From Acidimicrobiales bacterium (GTDB lineage Bacteria > Actinomycetota > Acidimicrobiia > Acidimicrobiales > SKKL01): DNA of 64,000 nt. A model generated the notes under the pieces. It was not told the origin of the DNA, did not search any database, and was given only the letters and a program-made list of their open reading frames with translations. The position numbers were made by a program, and so were the translations under genes. The stretch lies in contig JAXHLR010000002.1 in NCBI GenBank assembly GCA_034521975.1, positions 124,001 to 188,000 on the forward strand, read 5' to 3'. Below are positions 15,702 to 21,852 of this stretch, one piece after another (positions within the stretch are counted from its first letter, which is position 1; every line of letters begins with the position of its first letter).

Positions 15702-15811
15702 TGCTCAGGTCCTCCTCCTATAGGTCCGTCTGACTTGTAGCAAGCGTGAACAGAAATGGCGGCGGCGCCCGGGCTCGGTCCGGAACGTGTCAAGGGGGAT
15801 GAGACAACTTC

Positions 15812-16022
15812 TTACGCGGATTGGATGAGTGCTTCTCGGTTGGGGTCGTTGATCCACGCGACCTCGGGAAGCTTGGGTGGGGTCGGTGGTTGATGGCGGA
15901 ATCGGGCGGGGTTGGCGTTGTAGGCGGCGGTGAGGGTGGCGGCTCGGGCGGCGCGGATCTCGGTGGCGGTGCCGTAGTGGACCGATGCGGGGGTGTGCAG
16001 CCCGATGCCGGCGTGGAGGCGG
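15812..16022 (-). pseudogene. IS3-family transposase OrfB, 3' part
   Basis: Encodes the C-terminal end of an IS3 integrase-type transposase: LHAGIGLHTPASVHYG, then a helix with ATEIRAARAATLTAAY, then the proline-rich PPTPPKLPEVAWIN and a TAA stop. The upstream part of the same gene lies on the same strand at 20509-21315. Joining both, with one copy of the CGG shared at the junctions, gives an uninterrupted NHVHRLHAGIGLHTP. Confidence 0.85.
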
Positions 16023-16038
16023 TTCTCCGGGGGTCCGG
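16023..16038. repeat. Left terminal inverted repeat of the Tn554-like transposon
   Basis: TTCTCCGGGGGTCCGG; partner at 20493-20508 on the other strand with two mismatches. Confidence 0.75.
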
Positions 16039-16141
16039 CGCCGACGAGAGACACGGATCTGTGCGTTTGGGCAGGTGGGAGGGCTCGTGTCGACGGCCTG
16101 AGAACTGCAACAGGTGTGGTGCACGTGCCGGTTGGCGATGG

Positions 16142-16690
16142 TCATGTCGCGATCCGTGGGGTGTTGAGCTGTGCCATGAGTTCCCGGTTGGCGGCTCGGG
16201 CGGCGGCGAGGTCTTCGTCGCGTTCTTCGAGTTGGACCCGCAGATCGATGGTGTGTTGTTCGAGCGTGCCGATCTGTTGTTTGAGTTGGTCGATGTCGTC
16301 GGGGACGCCGAGACCGGACTCGTGCCATGCCTGGTCTCCGAGCGTCTCGGAGAGGCGCTGTTCGAGTTGGTGAACCCGCGCCGCGAGACGAACGGCGCGT
16401 TGCTGAGCGTTGGCCAGGTCGGCTTGCAGCGACGCCCGGCTGACGGCGGGCCCGACGCCTGCAGCGTTGGGCGGTTGGGCTTCGGCGGCGTGGATCTGTT
16501 CGAGAAGATCGCGGTGGCGGTAGAGGAAGCTGCGGTCCACTCCGGCGCGTCGGGCGATGCCGCTGACGCTGATCTCGTCGCCTTTGTTGGTGGCGTCGTT
16601 GAGGGCTTTGAGCACGCGTTGGCGACGGCGGGCTGAATCGGCGCGCCGTCCTTGGGTCATGGCAGCGCTGCGGGTGTGGGTGTCGGTCAT
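16142..16690 (-). CDS. TnpC-like accessory protein (DUF6262 type)
   Basis: A 182-residue protein: an N-terminal helix-turn-helix (VLKALNDATNKGDEISVSGIARRAGVDRSFLYRH broken as helices at about 25-60), then a long coiled coil (about 88-170: LQADLANAQQRAVRLAARV, LKQQIGTLEQHTIDLRVQL). This is the make-up of DUF6262/TnpC proteins that follow TnpA and TnpB in Tn554-type elements, where TnpC is not required for catalysis but influences transposition efficiency and orientation. Start overlaps the tnpB stop by four bases. Confidence 0.8.
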   Translation of the reverse strand: MTDTHTRSAAMTQGRRADSARRRQRVLKALNDATNKGDEISVSGIARRAGVDRSFLYRHRDLLEQIHAAEAQPPNAAGVGPAVSRASLQADLANAQQRAVRLAARVHQLEQRLSETLGDQAWHESGLGVPDDIDQLKQQIGTLEQHTIDLRVQLEERDEDLAAARAANRELMAQLNTPRIAT

Positions 16691-19170
16691 GCGGGTCGTT
16701 CCGGGCGGAGGTCGGGTGCGATCTGGCGGATGCGGGGCATGCCGATCATGACAGTGCGGTGCCCTCGGACGGCGGCGACGGCGGTGTCGATGTGGGTTCG
16801 TTCGTCGTCGGTGAGGTCGTTGAGGCCGGCGTGGACCCGGGCGATGAGTCGACGGACGCGGAGGACTTCTTCTTCGGAGGGCATGGCTTCAGCGCGTGCC
16901 CATTCGTCGACGTCGGTGGCAGCGAGGACTCGTTCCCGGTTGCGTAGGAGGTCGTCGAGGTAGGCCTGCAGGTCGGGCAGGTAGGAGACGTCGGTGCGGA
17001 AGTGGTCACAGCCGGTGCAGCGGAACCGGAACGGGCAGGCGTTGCCGCCGGCTTGGACGTTGGACGGCTCGGCGCAGACCCCGAAGGGGACGGCGACCTC
17101 GCCGATAGCGCGCCGGGTGTGTTCGGAGTCGAGCAGTTGCTGCGCGGTTCGCCAGATGCGGTTGCCGTGCCGGTCGAACTGCATGGCAGCGACCCGGTCG
17201 ACGGCCTCACGGCGACGGTTCTCGCCGACTCGGTAGTACGCCTTGGTGGCATCGAGCTTTCGGTGGTCCATGAGCTCGCGCAGCACGTCGATGCCGACCC
17301 CGGCATCGGCGTGACGTTGCGCGTAGGTGTGCCGGTAGGCGTAGAGCACGATCTTGGTCTTGTCGAAGATGGCGCCATCCGCGGTAACCAACTCGGGGAT
17401 GCGGGTCACCCAGGTGCGGTGCGCGAACGCGAGGCTGAACGCGGTGATGGCCTTGGTGCCGTCGGGGTTGCGCCGGTCGGTGGGCAACAGCTTCAACTCG
17501 GCCAGCGGGGTGTGGGGCCAGCGGGCTCGAACATGTTGGTGCTGGTCGATGAGCAGCTGGGCGGTGTTCTCGCTGATCGGCAGTCGACGGCCGAGCCGGT
17601 TGGCTTTGTGGTTGTCGTAGACGAGCACTGCTGCGCCGTCGTCGTCTCGTGACAGGCAGTCCAGGCTGAGTGTGCAGAGTTCTTCGGGTCGTCGGCCGGT
17701 GTCGATGGCCAACTCGATGGCGCAGCGCATCACCGGCGATGCCAGCTCGTCGAGGTGGGCGCAGAGCTGACGCATGATCTCGGAGGGGAGATCGCGGCCG
17801 GGCTCGGCTGGCTCGGCCTTGTCGGGCACGTCGGCGACTCCGATCGTGAAGTCCTCACCCAGGCCGGCCGCTGGCCCGCCGGGGCGGGTCAGGCCCATGG
17901 CCCGGGCCGTGGTCAGGACCTTGCGCACTTCCCGGCAGGTCCGGATCCGCCCGTCGTTGCTGATCTGGCCGGCGCCTTGGAGGTAGGCGAGCCGGTTCAG
18001 GAAGGCTTCCATAGCCGGGCGGTCCAGCGCGGCGGGGACCTCACCTCGGTCGGGTCTCATCCGCAGGCTCTCCGACAACCGGGCCACACAGCCCAGATGG
18101 TGACGCACGGCCAGGCCACCTCTGGACGTGGTCGACCGGCGCTTGGGGAGATCGTCGGCCGCCCAACGCTTGGCGACCTCGCGCAGCCAGGGCTGCGTGA
18201 TCTTCGTGAACGACAAGGTGCTGGTGTGGCCGAACACCACCAGGTCCCATTCGTCGCCGGCGATCTCGGTCTCGGGGCTCGCAAGTGCCCGACGGGCGTG
18301 CGCGCTCACCGACTTGCACAACGACTGAAGCATCGGGTCGGGATCGGCCGCCATGACGTAGTCGGCGAGCGTGGCCGCCTGCTGGGCGCGCAACTCGTTG
18401 CACCATCGCCGCAGATCGGCCTCTTTGGTCTTGACACCGTCGAGCCGGCCGCGCTGTTGCAGCCCGACCAACAGCTCCGCGACCACGACCGGTGCCAGCC
18501 CCCGGAAACTGATCTGCCCGCCCCGCCCGATCGGGGTCTCGGTCAGCCGCCACTGCTGCTCGTCGAAACGATCCTCCCGGCGGGCACGCCGGAGTCGGAG
18601 CTGGTGGGGCTCGCAGTAGAGGCCGTCGGGGTGACGGCGCTGCTGCACACAGCCGGCAACCGCGCACGGGCCGCAAGCAGTAAGCGGCCGGGCCGCCGGA
18701 TGCCGGCAGAACTCGGCCACGCCGATCCCGAGCGTGTCGGCTTGGTCGAGATGCGCTCGGCACAGCCCATGGCGCGACGACAGCCACTCCCGCCGACAGC
18801 GGCTCACCGCGCACAGGCCCGGGCCTTTCGCCCAGCCGGTGCGGACCGGCAACAGATCGATCTCATCGACACCGAGCCCGTGACGGTCAAGTCGACGCCG
18901 ACACGACGCGCACACCCGACTCCGGGCCGGCGCCGTGGTCGAACAGTCCTTCCCGCAACAGACCGGGCGGCCCAACAGCGGATGCGACGGCGGTGGGGAC
19001 AGCACACTGCTGGCCGGGTCCCATCCCGCGTCGGTGAGGAACACCGGGTCGACCAGGGCGGCGAGGCGAACGGCCCGCCCGTCGAGACCGCCCGCCGTGG
19101 CGAACACGTGTGAAACGTCCGTCGTCGGGACGACAACGTCGGCGGAAACGGCGTGGAGGGGAATGGTCAT
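16687..19170 (-). CDS. TnpB-like tyrosine recombinase with zinc-binding cysteine clusters
   Basis: An 827-residue protein. The C-terminal half holds the tyrosine recombinase domain: first catalytic Arg in AIDTGRRPEELCTLSL, the second Arg box in LYAYRHTYAQRHADAG, then LRELMDHRKLDATKAYYRV with the nucleophilic Tyr near its end. The N-terminal 200 residues contain repeated Cys/His clusters (CCGKDC...CASC, CAVSRC...CRAH, CAVAGC...CEPH), and another lies after the catalytic domain (CPFRFRCTGCDHF). Larger than classical TnpB (about 630). Overlaps tnpA stop and tnpC start, so the three are one operon. Confidence 0.85.
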   Translation of the reverse strand: MTIPLHAVSADVVVPTTDVSHVFATAGGLDGRAVRLAALVDPVFLTDAGWDPASSVLSPPPSHPLLGRPVCCGKDCSTTAPARSRVCASCRRRLDRHGLGVDEIDLLPVRTGWAKGPGLCAVSRCRREWLSSRHGLCRAHLDQADTLGIGVAEFCRHPAARPLTACGPCAVAGCVQQRRHPDGLYCEPHQLRLRRARREDRFDEQQWRLTETPIGRGGQISFRGLAPVVVAELLVGLQQRGRLDGVKTKEADLRRWCNELRAQQAATLADYVMAADPDPMLQSLCKSVSAHARRALASPETEIAGDEWDLVVFGHTSTLSFTKITQPWLREVAKRWAADDLPKRRSTTSRGGLAVRHHLGCVARLSESLRMRPDRGEVPAALDRPAMEAFLNRLAYLQGAGQISNDGRIRTCREVRKVLTTARAMGLTRPGGPAAGLGEDFTIGVADVPDKAEPAEPGRDLPSEIMRQLCAHLDELASPVMRCAIELAIDTGRRPEELCTLSLDCLSRDDDGAAVLVYDNHKANRLGRRLPISENTAQLLIDQHQHVRARWPHTPLAELKLLPTDRRNPDGTKAITAFSLAFAHRTWVTRIPELVTADGAIFDKTKIVLYAYRHTYAQRHADAGVGIDVLRELMDHRKLDATKAYYRVGENRRREAVDRVAAMQFDRHGNRIWRTAQQLLDSEHTRRAIGEVAVPFGVCAEPSNVQAGGNACPFRFRCTGCDHFRTDVSYLPDLQAYLDDLLRNRERVLAATDVDEWARAEAMPSEEEVLRVRRLIARVHAGLNDLTDDERTHIDTAVAAVRGHRTVMIGMPRIRQIAPDLRPERPA

Positions 19171-20347
19171 TGGTCGGTTCCTGTCTGTGGGCGGGGGCTT
19201 GGCACGCGGTCGACGGCGTCGCGTAGCCGGGCTGGATCCGGATGCAGATACACCTGCGAGGAGCTCATCGAGGCGTGACCCAACAGTTCGGCCACCTCGT
19301 CGAGCCCACCACCGGAATCGGCAACGTTGCTGCCGAAGGCATGACGGAGCTGATGGGGGACAGCGACCGGGAAAGGTCCGCGCGCTTCGACCACGCGGTC
19401 ATCAATTCGTTGACTGCGTCCGGTCGCATCGGCGCGCCCACCGGCCGACGGAACAAGTTGACCACCACGAAGTCGCTGTCGCGGGCTTCGGGCACCTCCA
19501 GGCGTTCGAACTCGTAGGTGTCGAAGGCAACCACGACCAGGAAGTCCAACGGGACCACCCGTTGACGGCGGGACTTGGCCCACGCCCCGTTCGGGTTGTC
19601 GCGTCGAACCACATGCACATGCGCCCGCTCGACCTCGCAGCCCAGCGGGCGGGAGTCCAATCCGAGATGGACGTCGCTGCGACGCAGCCCGCACAACTCG
19701 CCCCGACGGAGCCCCGCTCGAGCCATCAACAACACCATCAGCCGGTCCCGGGCCGACCGGCACGCCCCCAACAACGCCACGATCTCGGCGTCGCTGGCCC
19801 GATCCACCGCCGTCTCCGGTTCATGCAGACGGTGGCGGACCCGCATCCGCCACGACATCGGGCCGTCTTCTCGTTGTGCTTGCTCGGGAAGGTCGCGCTC
19901 GCTGGCCAGCTCATAGAGCATCGGCACCAGATGGCCGGGCGCCGCTCCCGAGTCGACCGCGTGCACCACGAACCCCCGGACTGCGGCCAACACGCCGTTG
20001 ACCCGGCGGGCGCCGCGCACCGGTTCCCGGCCCGGACCGGAGAGCACCTCACCCATCTCGACGGGAGACGCGTCGAGCCCGCTCACCTCCGGCCCCGCGT
20101 GGCGTAGCCACACCATGAACAGCCCCACATGCTCGACGCCGTCATGCCAGTGACGGCCGGTGCGAGCACACCAACGCAAGAACAAGCAGATCCCGCCCGC
20201 GTAGGACTTCGTGGTCAGCTCCGAGCCATCGCGGCCGAACCGGACATGGCGCAGATACGCGTCGGCCTCGGCGACCACGACCAGGTCGTCGTCGAGCACC
20301 GTCCAATACCGCACCCCCGACGGCAGCTTCACCGGGAACGCCCTCAC
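19167..20347 (-). pseudogene. TnpA-like tyrosine recombinase, frameshifted
   Basis: GTG at 20347. The N-terminal SAM-like domain includes TTKSYAGGICLFLRWCARTG. The catalytic domain begins with LMVLLMARAGLRRGELCGLR (first Arg). Near 19376-19390 the frame changes: the HxLRH box (VPHQLRHAFGSNVADSG), the second His (ELLGHASMSSSQVYLHP) and the Tyr are only in the next frame, which runs to 19167. One lost base in a GCGCGCGG run explains it; the total length, 1181 bp, is one short of a multiple of three. The defect, or a sequencing error, would inactivate the transposon. Confidence 0.8.
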
Positions 20348-20492
20348 CGGCCATCACCGACCACGACCCGTTCGCCGTCAACGCCCGCCCTCGTCACAGA
20401 CGCCATGCGTAATCGCCACGTGCACCACAGGCGCGGATACCTGTTGCACAACCCGTCAGACGGCGCCTCTATGCAACATGGCGCGACAGGTC

Positions 20493-20508
20493 CCGGTCCC
20501 CCAGAGAA
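20493..20508. repeat. Right terminal inverted repeat of the Tn554-like transposon
   Basis: CCGGTCCCCCAGAGAA; reverse complement of the left end with two mismatches. CGG follows directly, as it precedes the left end. Confidence 0.75.
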
Positions 20509-21315
20509 CGGTGGACGTGGTTGTAGTGATCGAAGAACGAGGCGCAGAACGAGCGGGCATCGGCGATGGATCCGAACCGGGTGGGGAACGCGGGGCAGTA
20601 CTTGAGGGTCTTGAACTGGGCTTCGCTGTAGGGGTTGTCGTTGGAGACCGATGGGCGGCTGTGGGAGCGGGTGACGCCGAGGTCGACGAGGAGCTGGGCG
20701 ACGGGTTTGGAGGTCATCGAGGTGCCGCGGTCGGCGTGCAGGGTGAGCTGGTTGCGGTCGATGCCTTGTTGGTCGAGGGCGTCGGCGATGAACGCTTCGG
20801 CGAGTTCGCCGGTCTCAGCGGCGGCGACACACCAGGCCGACGACGTAGCGGGAGTAGATGTCGATGATCACGAACAGCTCGTAGTAGACGCCGCGTTCGG
20901 GGCCGGGGAGCTTGGTGATATCCCATGACCAAACCTCATTCGGTGCGGTCGCGATGAGCTCGGGGCGCTTGCGGGCCGGGTGGGTGCGTTGGCGGCGACG
21001 TTCGCGGTTCTCGCCGGCGGCGGCGAGGAGCCGGTACATGGTGCGGATCGAACACAGGTAGATGCCGTCATCGAGCAGCTGGGCCCACACCTGAGCCGGG
21101 GCCAGGTCCCGGTACTTGGGCGAGCGAAGCACCGACAGCACGTGCTGTTGTTCGGGCTCGGACAGCTTGTTCGGCGGCGCCGGCCGCGGTGGCGCAGGCC
21201 CATGGACCGGTGGCCGTCGGCGACGCAGCACCGTGGAGCGGTTGACGCCCAACAGCTCACACGCCCGCTTGGTCGACGTGGCCTCCTCCAGGGCGGGCAG
21301 GTGCTCGGCGGTCAC
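20509..21315 (-). pseudogene. IS3-family transposase OrfB, 5' part
   Basis: GTG at 21315 overlapping the orfA stop. N-terminal HTH region (TSTKRACELLGVNRSTVLRRR), then the rve integrase core: VWSWDITKLPGPERGVYYE holds the first Asp, and the second is in LTLHADRGTSMTSK. The catalytic Glu region is NDNPYSEAQFKTLKY. A one-base insertion near 20841 changes frame (VVGLVC versus the expected VVGWCVAAAETGELAEAF). The gene stops making sense after NHVHR, where the transposon is inserted. Confidence 0.85.
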
Positions 21316-21750
21316 GGCTTCGACCTGGTCTCGGTGTCCGCGCTCTCGGAGAGCTGCTCCAAGAGCGCGTGCACTTTTCCCGTGATCTCCAACGCGGTCT
21401 GGGTCTTGGCCAGGTCTTTGGCGCAGGCGCTCGTTCTGTCGGCGCAGCCGATCGAGCTCGACTTCCTCCGCCGTGCGGCGCTTCTTCGACTTGCGGGCCA
21501 GACCCTCGCGGGCGCCGGCCTCGGCCTGCTTACGCCACTCCGAGATGTGGGAGCTGTACAAGCCCTCACGGCGCAGGATCGCTCCGCGTTCCTCCGAGCC
21601 CTTCGGCCACGAGTCGTACTCGGCGAGGATCTCCGCCTTGTACCCGGCGGTGAACCGCCGCCGCGTCGGGCGCGCCGCAGGGTCGATGTCGTCGTCAGTC
21701 ACACCCCCAGTGTGGGCGCGGCCGTTCAACGATGCAGTGGTCATGGTCAT
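21312..21750 (-). pseudogene. IS3-family transposase OrfA, frameshifted
   Basis: Starts MTMTTASLNGRAHTGG, then a helix-turn-helix typical of OrfA (RRRFTAGYKAEILAEYDSW, REGLYSSHISEWRKQAEAG) and a leucine-zipper-like helix (EVELDRLRRQNERL). A one-base insertion near 21430 pushes the C-terminal part (KDLAKTQTALEITGKVHALL) into another frame, ending at 21312. OrfA supplies DNA binding for IS3 transposition. Confidence 0.8.
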
Positions 21751-21852
21751 GGTTCTCGAGTTCCTGTCTCGCCCCGTCGGGTCAGATGATCGGGTACCGC
21801 AGGTGTCTCAACTCACCCTGACAGACAGGGGTCGGATGATCCTCGCCCCGGT

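Follow-up and report, generated by a model that had tools for sequence, protein, structure and literature searches.

A Tn554-related transposon nested in an IS3-family element of an Acidimicrobiales bacterium, and the conserved transposase motif that its lineage appears to target

Tn554 of Staphylococcus and Enterococcus carries the genes tnpA, tnpB and tnpC in this order, the first two coding for tyrosine recombinases (TnpB of 630 aa) and the last one for a DUF6262 protein (PF19776, 8.2e-15); it occupies a radC-like gene (JAB domain) and transports resistance cargo. Its ends are imperfectly matching inverted repeats (PMC10214605 Fig. 1c), and in Tn554-related elements and SEs one end of the element keeps the six bases of the target, the other end receiving the six that flanked the element at its former site (PMC10214605). 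The SEs/GInts combine a large and an ordinary tyrosine recombinase with a TnpC/Srap-like protein, 13-19 bp imperfect inverted-repeat ends, a 6-bp footprint and a fourth gene (tfp/ginC); circular forms of SEs are described, and the route taken by Tn554 is unresolved (PMC10214605). In Tn552-II, the att sequence is brought in and measures 7 bp (PMC12486829). RIT elements are clusters of three tyrosine recombinases with terminal inverted repeats. In Actinobacteria, Van Houdt et al. defined in 2012 a class of Tn554-related elements (Famint27/33 plus TnpC) with one abnormally long recombinase of 611-828 aa, a second one of ~350 aa and a TnpC relative; the section of that paper on these elements leaves their termini, footprint and targets undefined and does not mention transposases as a target (PMC3414803).

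The window analysed here, a stretch of 64,000 nucleotides from contig JAXHLR010000002.1 of an Acidimicrobiales bacterium, contains a 4,486-bp element of this kind (16023-20508, minus strand, with the tnpA end at 20508 and the tnpC end at 16023) that splits the orfB transposase gene of an IS3-family insertion sequence (15781-21830, minus strand, its extent drawn from the blastn identity with the sister copy L057 and its family from NF033516/rve_3). The insert holds only three genes, all on the minus strand, namely tnpA (19167-20347; PF00589; BLASTP against Tn554 TnpA, E=1e-15), tnpB (16687-19170; PF00589; BLASTP against Tn554 TnpB, E=1e-17), which codes for a tyrosine recombinase of 827 aa extended N-terminally by a Cys/His-rich region, and tnpC (16142-16690; PF19776, 6.5e-11), which codes for a DUF6262 protein of the Tn554 TnpC family. 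The genes are consecutive, with overlapping ends and no space for a fourth one, so that the element lacks the tfp/ginC gene of the SEs/GInts, which it otherwise resembles in its large and ordinary recombinases, TnpC-type protein, inverted-repeat ends and footprint. It shares with the RIT elements a recombinase cluster bounded by terminal inverted repeats but encodes two PF00589 proteins and a DUF6262 protein instead of three tyrosine recombinases. Judged by these sequence features, the element is a member of the Tn554 family, with a tnpA-tnpB-tnpC operon, two homologous recombinases, a DUF6262 TnpC, 6 bp brought in and site-specific insertion; from Tn554 itself it differs in the longer TnpB, the IS transposase target and the absence of cargo. 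Moreover, the 827-aa TnpB, the accompanying shorter recombinase and the TnpC relative place it in the actinobacterial class of 2012, and both TnpB and TnpC recover by homology pRHL3, a member listed in 2012 (Table 2 of PMC3414803). The family is therefore already known, since TnpA, TnpB and TnpC are homologous to those of Tn554 and the class was defined in 2012 (PMC3414803); the earlier note on this DNA was right in describing a minimal Tn554-like transposon nested in an IS3 element and wrong in presenting it as an intermediate or undescribed group.

The borders of the element are certain because its ends match the boundary of an empty site, the ends of a relative and a motif recurring throughout the clade. 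Specifically, the same genome carries an uninterrupted sister IS (L057), 96% identical to the host IS, whose empty site reads ...CCCACCG|CCACGCC... in the blastn alignment, whereas the window, in the tnpA-to-tnpC direction, reads ...CCACCG-[TTCTCT...GGAGAA]-CCGCCT-CCACGCC.... Compared with the sister copy, the foreign DNA amounts to 4,486 bp plus 6 bp: the hexamer CCGCCT at the tnpC end (16017-16022, minus strand; AGGCGG on the plus strand) is not in the empty site, and the target core CCACCG, present in the sister IS, is kept at the tnpA end (20509-20514, minus strand). A 4,490-bp relative (L005), 88% identical, has the same ends in a different host gene. These comparisons uphold the insert borders and the split orfB of the earlier note, which had also restored the reading frame by removing the insert together with one CGG; here the sister copy shows six extra bases and a true join NHxHR-HAGIG, the apparent CGG duplication and the Leu of the NHVHR-LHAGIG join being due to the hexamer CCGCCT. 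The sister empty site thus rules out a 3-bp CGG target duplication.

The 6-bp rule holds at the five loci (L001, L003, L005, L011, L015) at which both flanks and an empty-site or profile check are available. With the element and 6 bp removed, the joined flanks of L011 align without gaps to an IS481-like M. intracellulare gene that has no insertion (210/268), and those of L015 to a Streptomyces Tn3-type transposase (210/270); at L003 and L005, the 6-bp accounting gives the exact profile spacing. In addition, one IS of M. scrofulaceum is present in that genome both with the element and, at L084, as an empty copy (TACAACTACCACCGACCCCATGG). The brought-in hexamer is the footprint typical of Tn554-type elements and not a target duplication. 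An intermediate between Tn554 and RIT elements, or a new group, moving in a DDE-like manner with terminal inverted repeats and a 3-bp (CGG) duplication, would agree with the CGG found at both ends in the window and with the 14/16 inverted-repeat ends. We give this reading next to no credence: the sister empty site lacks the CCT and lies six bases short of the occupied one, the hexamers at the two ends differ in five of the six relatives with both flanks (L001, L003, L005, L011 and L014; they are identical in L013), the genes are two recombinases and a DUF6262 protein only, and Tn554 itself, contrary to the earlier note, has imperfect terminal inverted repeats (PMC10214605).

The outermost 16 bp of the insert match as inverted repeats at 14 of 16 positions (TTCTC-Y-GGGGG-W-CCGG), with TTCTCTGGGGGACCGG on the tnpA side (20493-20508, minus strand) and TTCTCCGGGGGTCCGG on the tnpC side (16023-16038, plus strand). 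Since the surrounding 6.6 kb holds 21 overlapping 16-bp windows that match equally well more than 3 kb apart, this match alone is weak evidence, and inverted repeats were rejected as sufficient proof of the borders. The repeats reported by the earlier note are nonetheless there, and the terminal ones recur in L005 and in the clade; the subterminal ones consist of a 15/16 inverted match (16115-16130 / 20414-20429) plus TGCAACAGG. Alignments of the ends reveal the outer core at both of them and conserved subterminal sites, TGCAACAG...GTGTGGTGCWCGTG, namely TGCAACAGGTGTGGTGCACGTG on the tnpC side (16106-16127, plus strand; clade-conserved in the alignment of 14 tnpC-side ends) and TGCAACAGGTATCCGCGCCTGTGGTGCACGTGGCG on the tnpA side (20414-20448, minus strand; alignment of 10 tnpA-side ends), the latter including a degenerate inner copy of the terminal motif ~68 bp inside the tnpA end. 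Outer cores and subterminal sites are taken to be the putative core and accessory sites of the recombinases. The inner copy lies 67-70 bp inside the tnpA end in most actinobacterial relatives and resembles a ~25-bp direct repeat, spaced 78 bp apart, that Tn554 in pDY31-optrA has within its own tnpA end (L063, 4231-4350). Other direct repeats within the window look like GC-rich background. The terminal inverted repeats of Tn554 are those given in PMC10214605.

At all window-clade loci with readable ends (14/14), the cut falls at a single column, YNxxR-x|H, of the rve_3 region, and the targets are rve/IS3/IS481-type transposase genes; four insertions in M. scrofulaceum and two of three in another Mycobacterium share this column. 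The tnpA-side flanks finish with YN..R-x and the tnpC-side flanks, after the 6 bp, start with H..xG..P, one or both of these halves being read per locus because several loci have a single readable flank; in the three tnpA-side flanks that end at the junction and match Pfam rve_3, the profile match breaks off at position 57-58 of 67. At every locus with a readable flank on the tnpA side, the element points in the same direction as the broken gene. Over the 54 residues before the junction, most of the interrupted transposases share 11-36% identity (59% in one pair), and the recurrence of the same codons in unrelated transposases therefore speaks for target specificity and not for a mis-drawn border. 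The borders extracted from the relatives combine the same ends with different flanks; as to the chance, raised in the earlier note, that relatives always share the same IS3 flanks, IS3-type transposase genes do house nearly all of them, but these genes are unrelated to each other and are entered at the same conserved codons. The aligned sites yield the target consensus YACAAC-N5-[N6]-NCAY, and three further empty sites (L011, L015, L084) fit this model. Moreover, the 11 tnpA-side core hexamers and the 16 tnpC-side footprints share N-C-R-N-C-N with an invariant C5, as expected if the footprints were former cores. The window footprint CCGCCT fits the codons R-L before H, and the previous home of the element was probably also an rve_3-type transposase.

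Two loci depart from the common pattern. At L014, one extra codon stands between YN and H, and the usual spacing is off by 3 bp. In another Mycobacterium (G775), translated flanks place two of three junctions in decayed rve_3-like genes, and the third one (L073, Mycobacterium RYN_164, 1501 of the reverse strand) interrupts a gene that matches no Pfam family and is not recognisable as a transposase, an apparent off-target insertion whose site DNA, TTACAACCCCCG[TGGCCG], fits the tnpA-side consensus YACAAC-N5-[N6]. This insertion in a non-IS gene would suit an element of low target specificity that does not recognise the motif and is found in ISs because these are abundant, multicopy and dispensable, so that insertions there survive selection and those in essential genes are purged. 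However, random landing would scatter over ~1.2 kb and in both orientations, the junctions share one alignment column and one orientation in unrelated ISs, and even the non-IS site has YACAAC at the right distance, which makes low specificity very unlikely. The window-clade elements thus appear to insert almost exclusively at one conserved spot of unrelated IS transposase genes, and they behave like parasites of these.

In M. scrofulaceum, four junction contigs carry one footprint, CCGTCC, followed by |HGGLGGQTPY in two copies of one IS, by |HSALGYQTP and by |HSYLADVPP. This bears on whether the window element is an immobile relic spread passively as cargo of its host IS. Indeed, its tnpA is frameshifted (the gene content listed in the earlier note stands): the gene is split over two ORFs (19265-20347 and 19167-19763), and relative to the intact frame of L005 it has a 1-nt deletion in a C-run (19350-19375), upstream of the catalytic HxLRH...Tyr. 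The deletion could be a base-calling error at the homopolymer or a real decay or inactivation, both being possible because single bases are likewise inserted or deleted in the host IS3 orfB relative to its sister copy L057; the window copy may thus be dead. An element between the ends of an IS could also be moved in trans. Passive spread is nevertheless unlikely, given that the ISs occupied by relatives are many and diverse and that the ends are exact and the 6-bp footprints present there, that tnpA is intact in L005 and that the M. scrofulaceum element, which has one footprint in three or more distinct ISs, requires site-specific movement of its own.

Elements that target rve_3 group into a single clade of the TnpB tree (12 rows; support 100/99), next to which branches L016 (with a 67-bp flank), followed by the element that targets a Tn3 transposase (99/99); the rve_3 target is specific to this clade. 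In the remaining lineages, the interrupted gene codes for an ATP-dependent DNA ligase, Ku, DprA, a LexA-type peptidase, a kinase-like AAA protein or an ISL3 transposase, the exact sites being provisional as usually one flank is read. The DprA, LexA-type, Ku and ATP-dependent DNA ligase genes host L018, L021, L024, L027, L029, L031-L033, L038 and L039, and, together with the radC-like target of Tn554, these targets lean to DNA-repair/recombination genes. The sister-lineage element of Nonomuraea glycinis (L015, 6941-12869) is 5.9 kb long, has additional genes (~1.5 kb) that follow tnpC before the element ends, and sits exactly in conserved codons of the Tn3-family transposase (NLMTEY|HARYGG). 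A related element of Saccharopolyspora spinosa (L042, 6727-11242) lies within an ISL3-family transposase gene, the joined frame of which is open once the element and 6 bp are removed. The genome of the window also contains, near a contig end, a distant (29%) TnpB-like recombinase (L002; G000 contig C9, 209931-211166). With TnpB as the query, the class, the phylum and the family contributed few additional members; no relatives were found in the viral contigs searched and none in the family of G730 at a strict cut-off.

All this is very probably explained by a site-specific transposon of the Tn554 family, whose lineage targets the DNA that encodes the YNxxR-x-H motif of IS3/IS481-type transposases. 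TnpA and TnpB would move the element, with TnpC as an orientation/stimulation factor, and the ends would function as inverted core sites (TTCTC-Y-GGGGG...) flanked by subterminal accessory sites. According to the Tn554/SE model, recombination between the two ends, with a 6-bp spacer, would yield a circle carrying the old 6 bp of the tnpA flank; this circle, and a copy-out-like route, are inferred from the literature on the related systems. The circle would then recombine with the target YACAAC-N5-[N6]-NCAY; the tnpA end would keep the N6 of the target and the tnpC end would receive the brought-in one, so that no target duplication would arise. Since the target DNA of the lineage encodes a conserved motif, the element would jump from one IS transposase gene to another, co-oriented with the gene it breaks.

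How the target is read may relate to the N-terminal part of TnpB. Its first 190 residues contain three Cys/His clusters (C71/C76/C87/C90, C120/C125/C137/H140 and C169/C174/C186/H189) conserved across 23 aligned proteins, and the Tn554 TnpB aligns with the window TnpB from residue 305 onward only. The N-terminal part has the lowest between-lineage identity of the whole protein and is for this reason a candidate for target reading, although a role of the Cys/His modules in it is purely hypothetical. It is quite possible, if short of probable, that the lineage has specialised as a hyperparasite of DDE transposons, with these modules re-aimed at the most conserved transposase codons (rve_3 of IS3/IS481, and Tn3 and ISL3 in the sister lineages). 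Mobile elements that land in other mobile elements have precedents. IS4321 and IS5075 insert at the ends of Tn21. Tn5053-type elements are hunters of res sites (PMC7765201). Both share this niche with the window clade; they differ from it in using transposon ends or res sites, not conserved transposase codons, and in their recombination chemistry.

The family is known and the transposase-motif target apparently undescribed: among open-licence papers, none was found on a tyrosine-recombinase transposon (a Tn554 relative) that targets a conserved transposase motif. For an actinobacterial Tn554-like lineage, the analysis defines the ends, proves the 6-bp footprint by an empty site and derives a consensus of the target, the ends and targets not being given in the section of the 2012 description on these elements (PMC3414803), and the brought-in hexamers are a record of the previous home of each copy. 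If the lineage were indeed hyperparasitic, its target would always be dispensable, multicopy and horizontally moving, the host IS would be silenced, and the element could also be carried in trans by intact IS copies. Lastly, a lineage that lands in conserved coding sequence of other transposons makes target choice by multi-recombinase elements directly testable.
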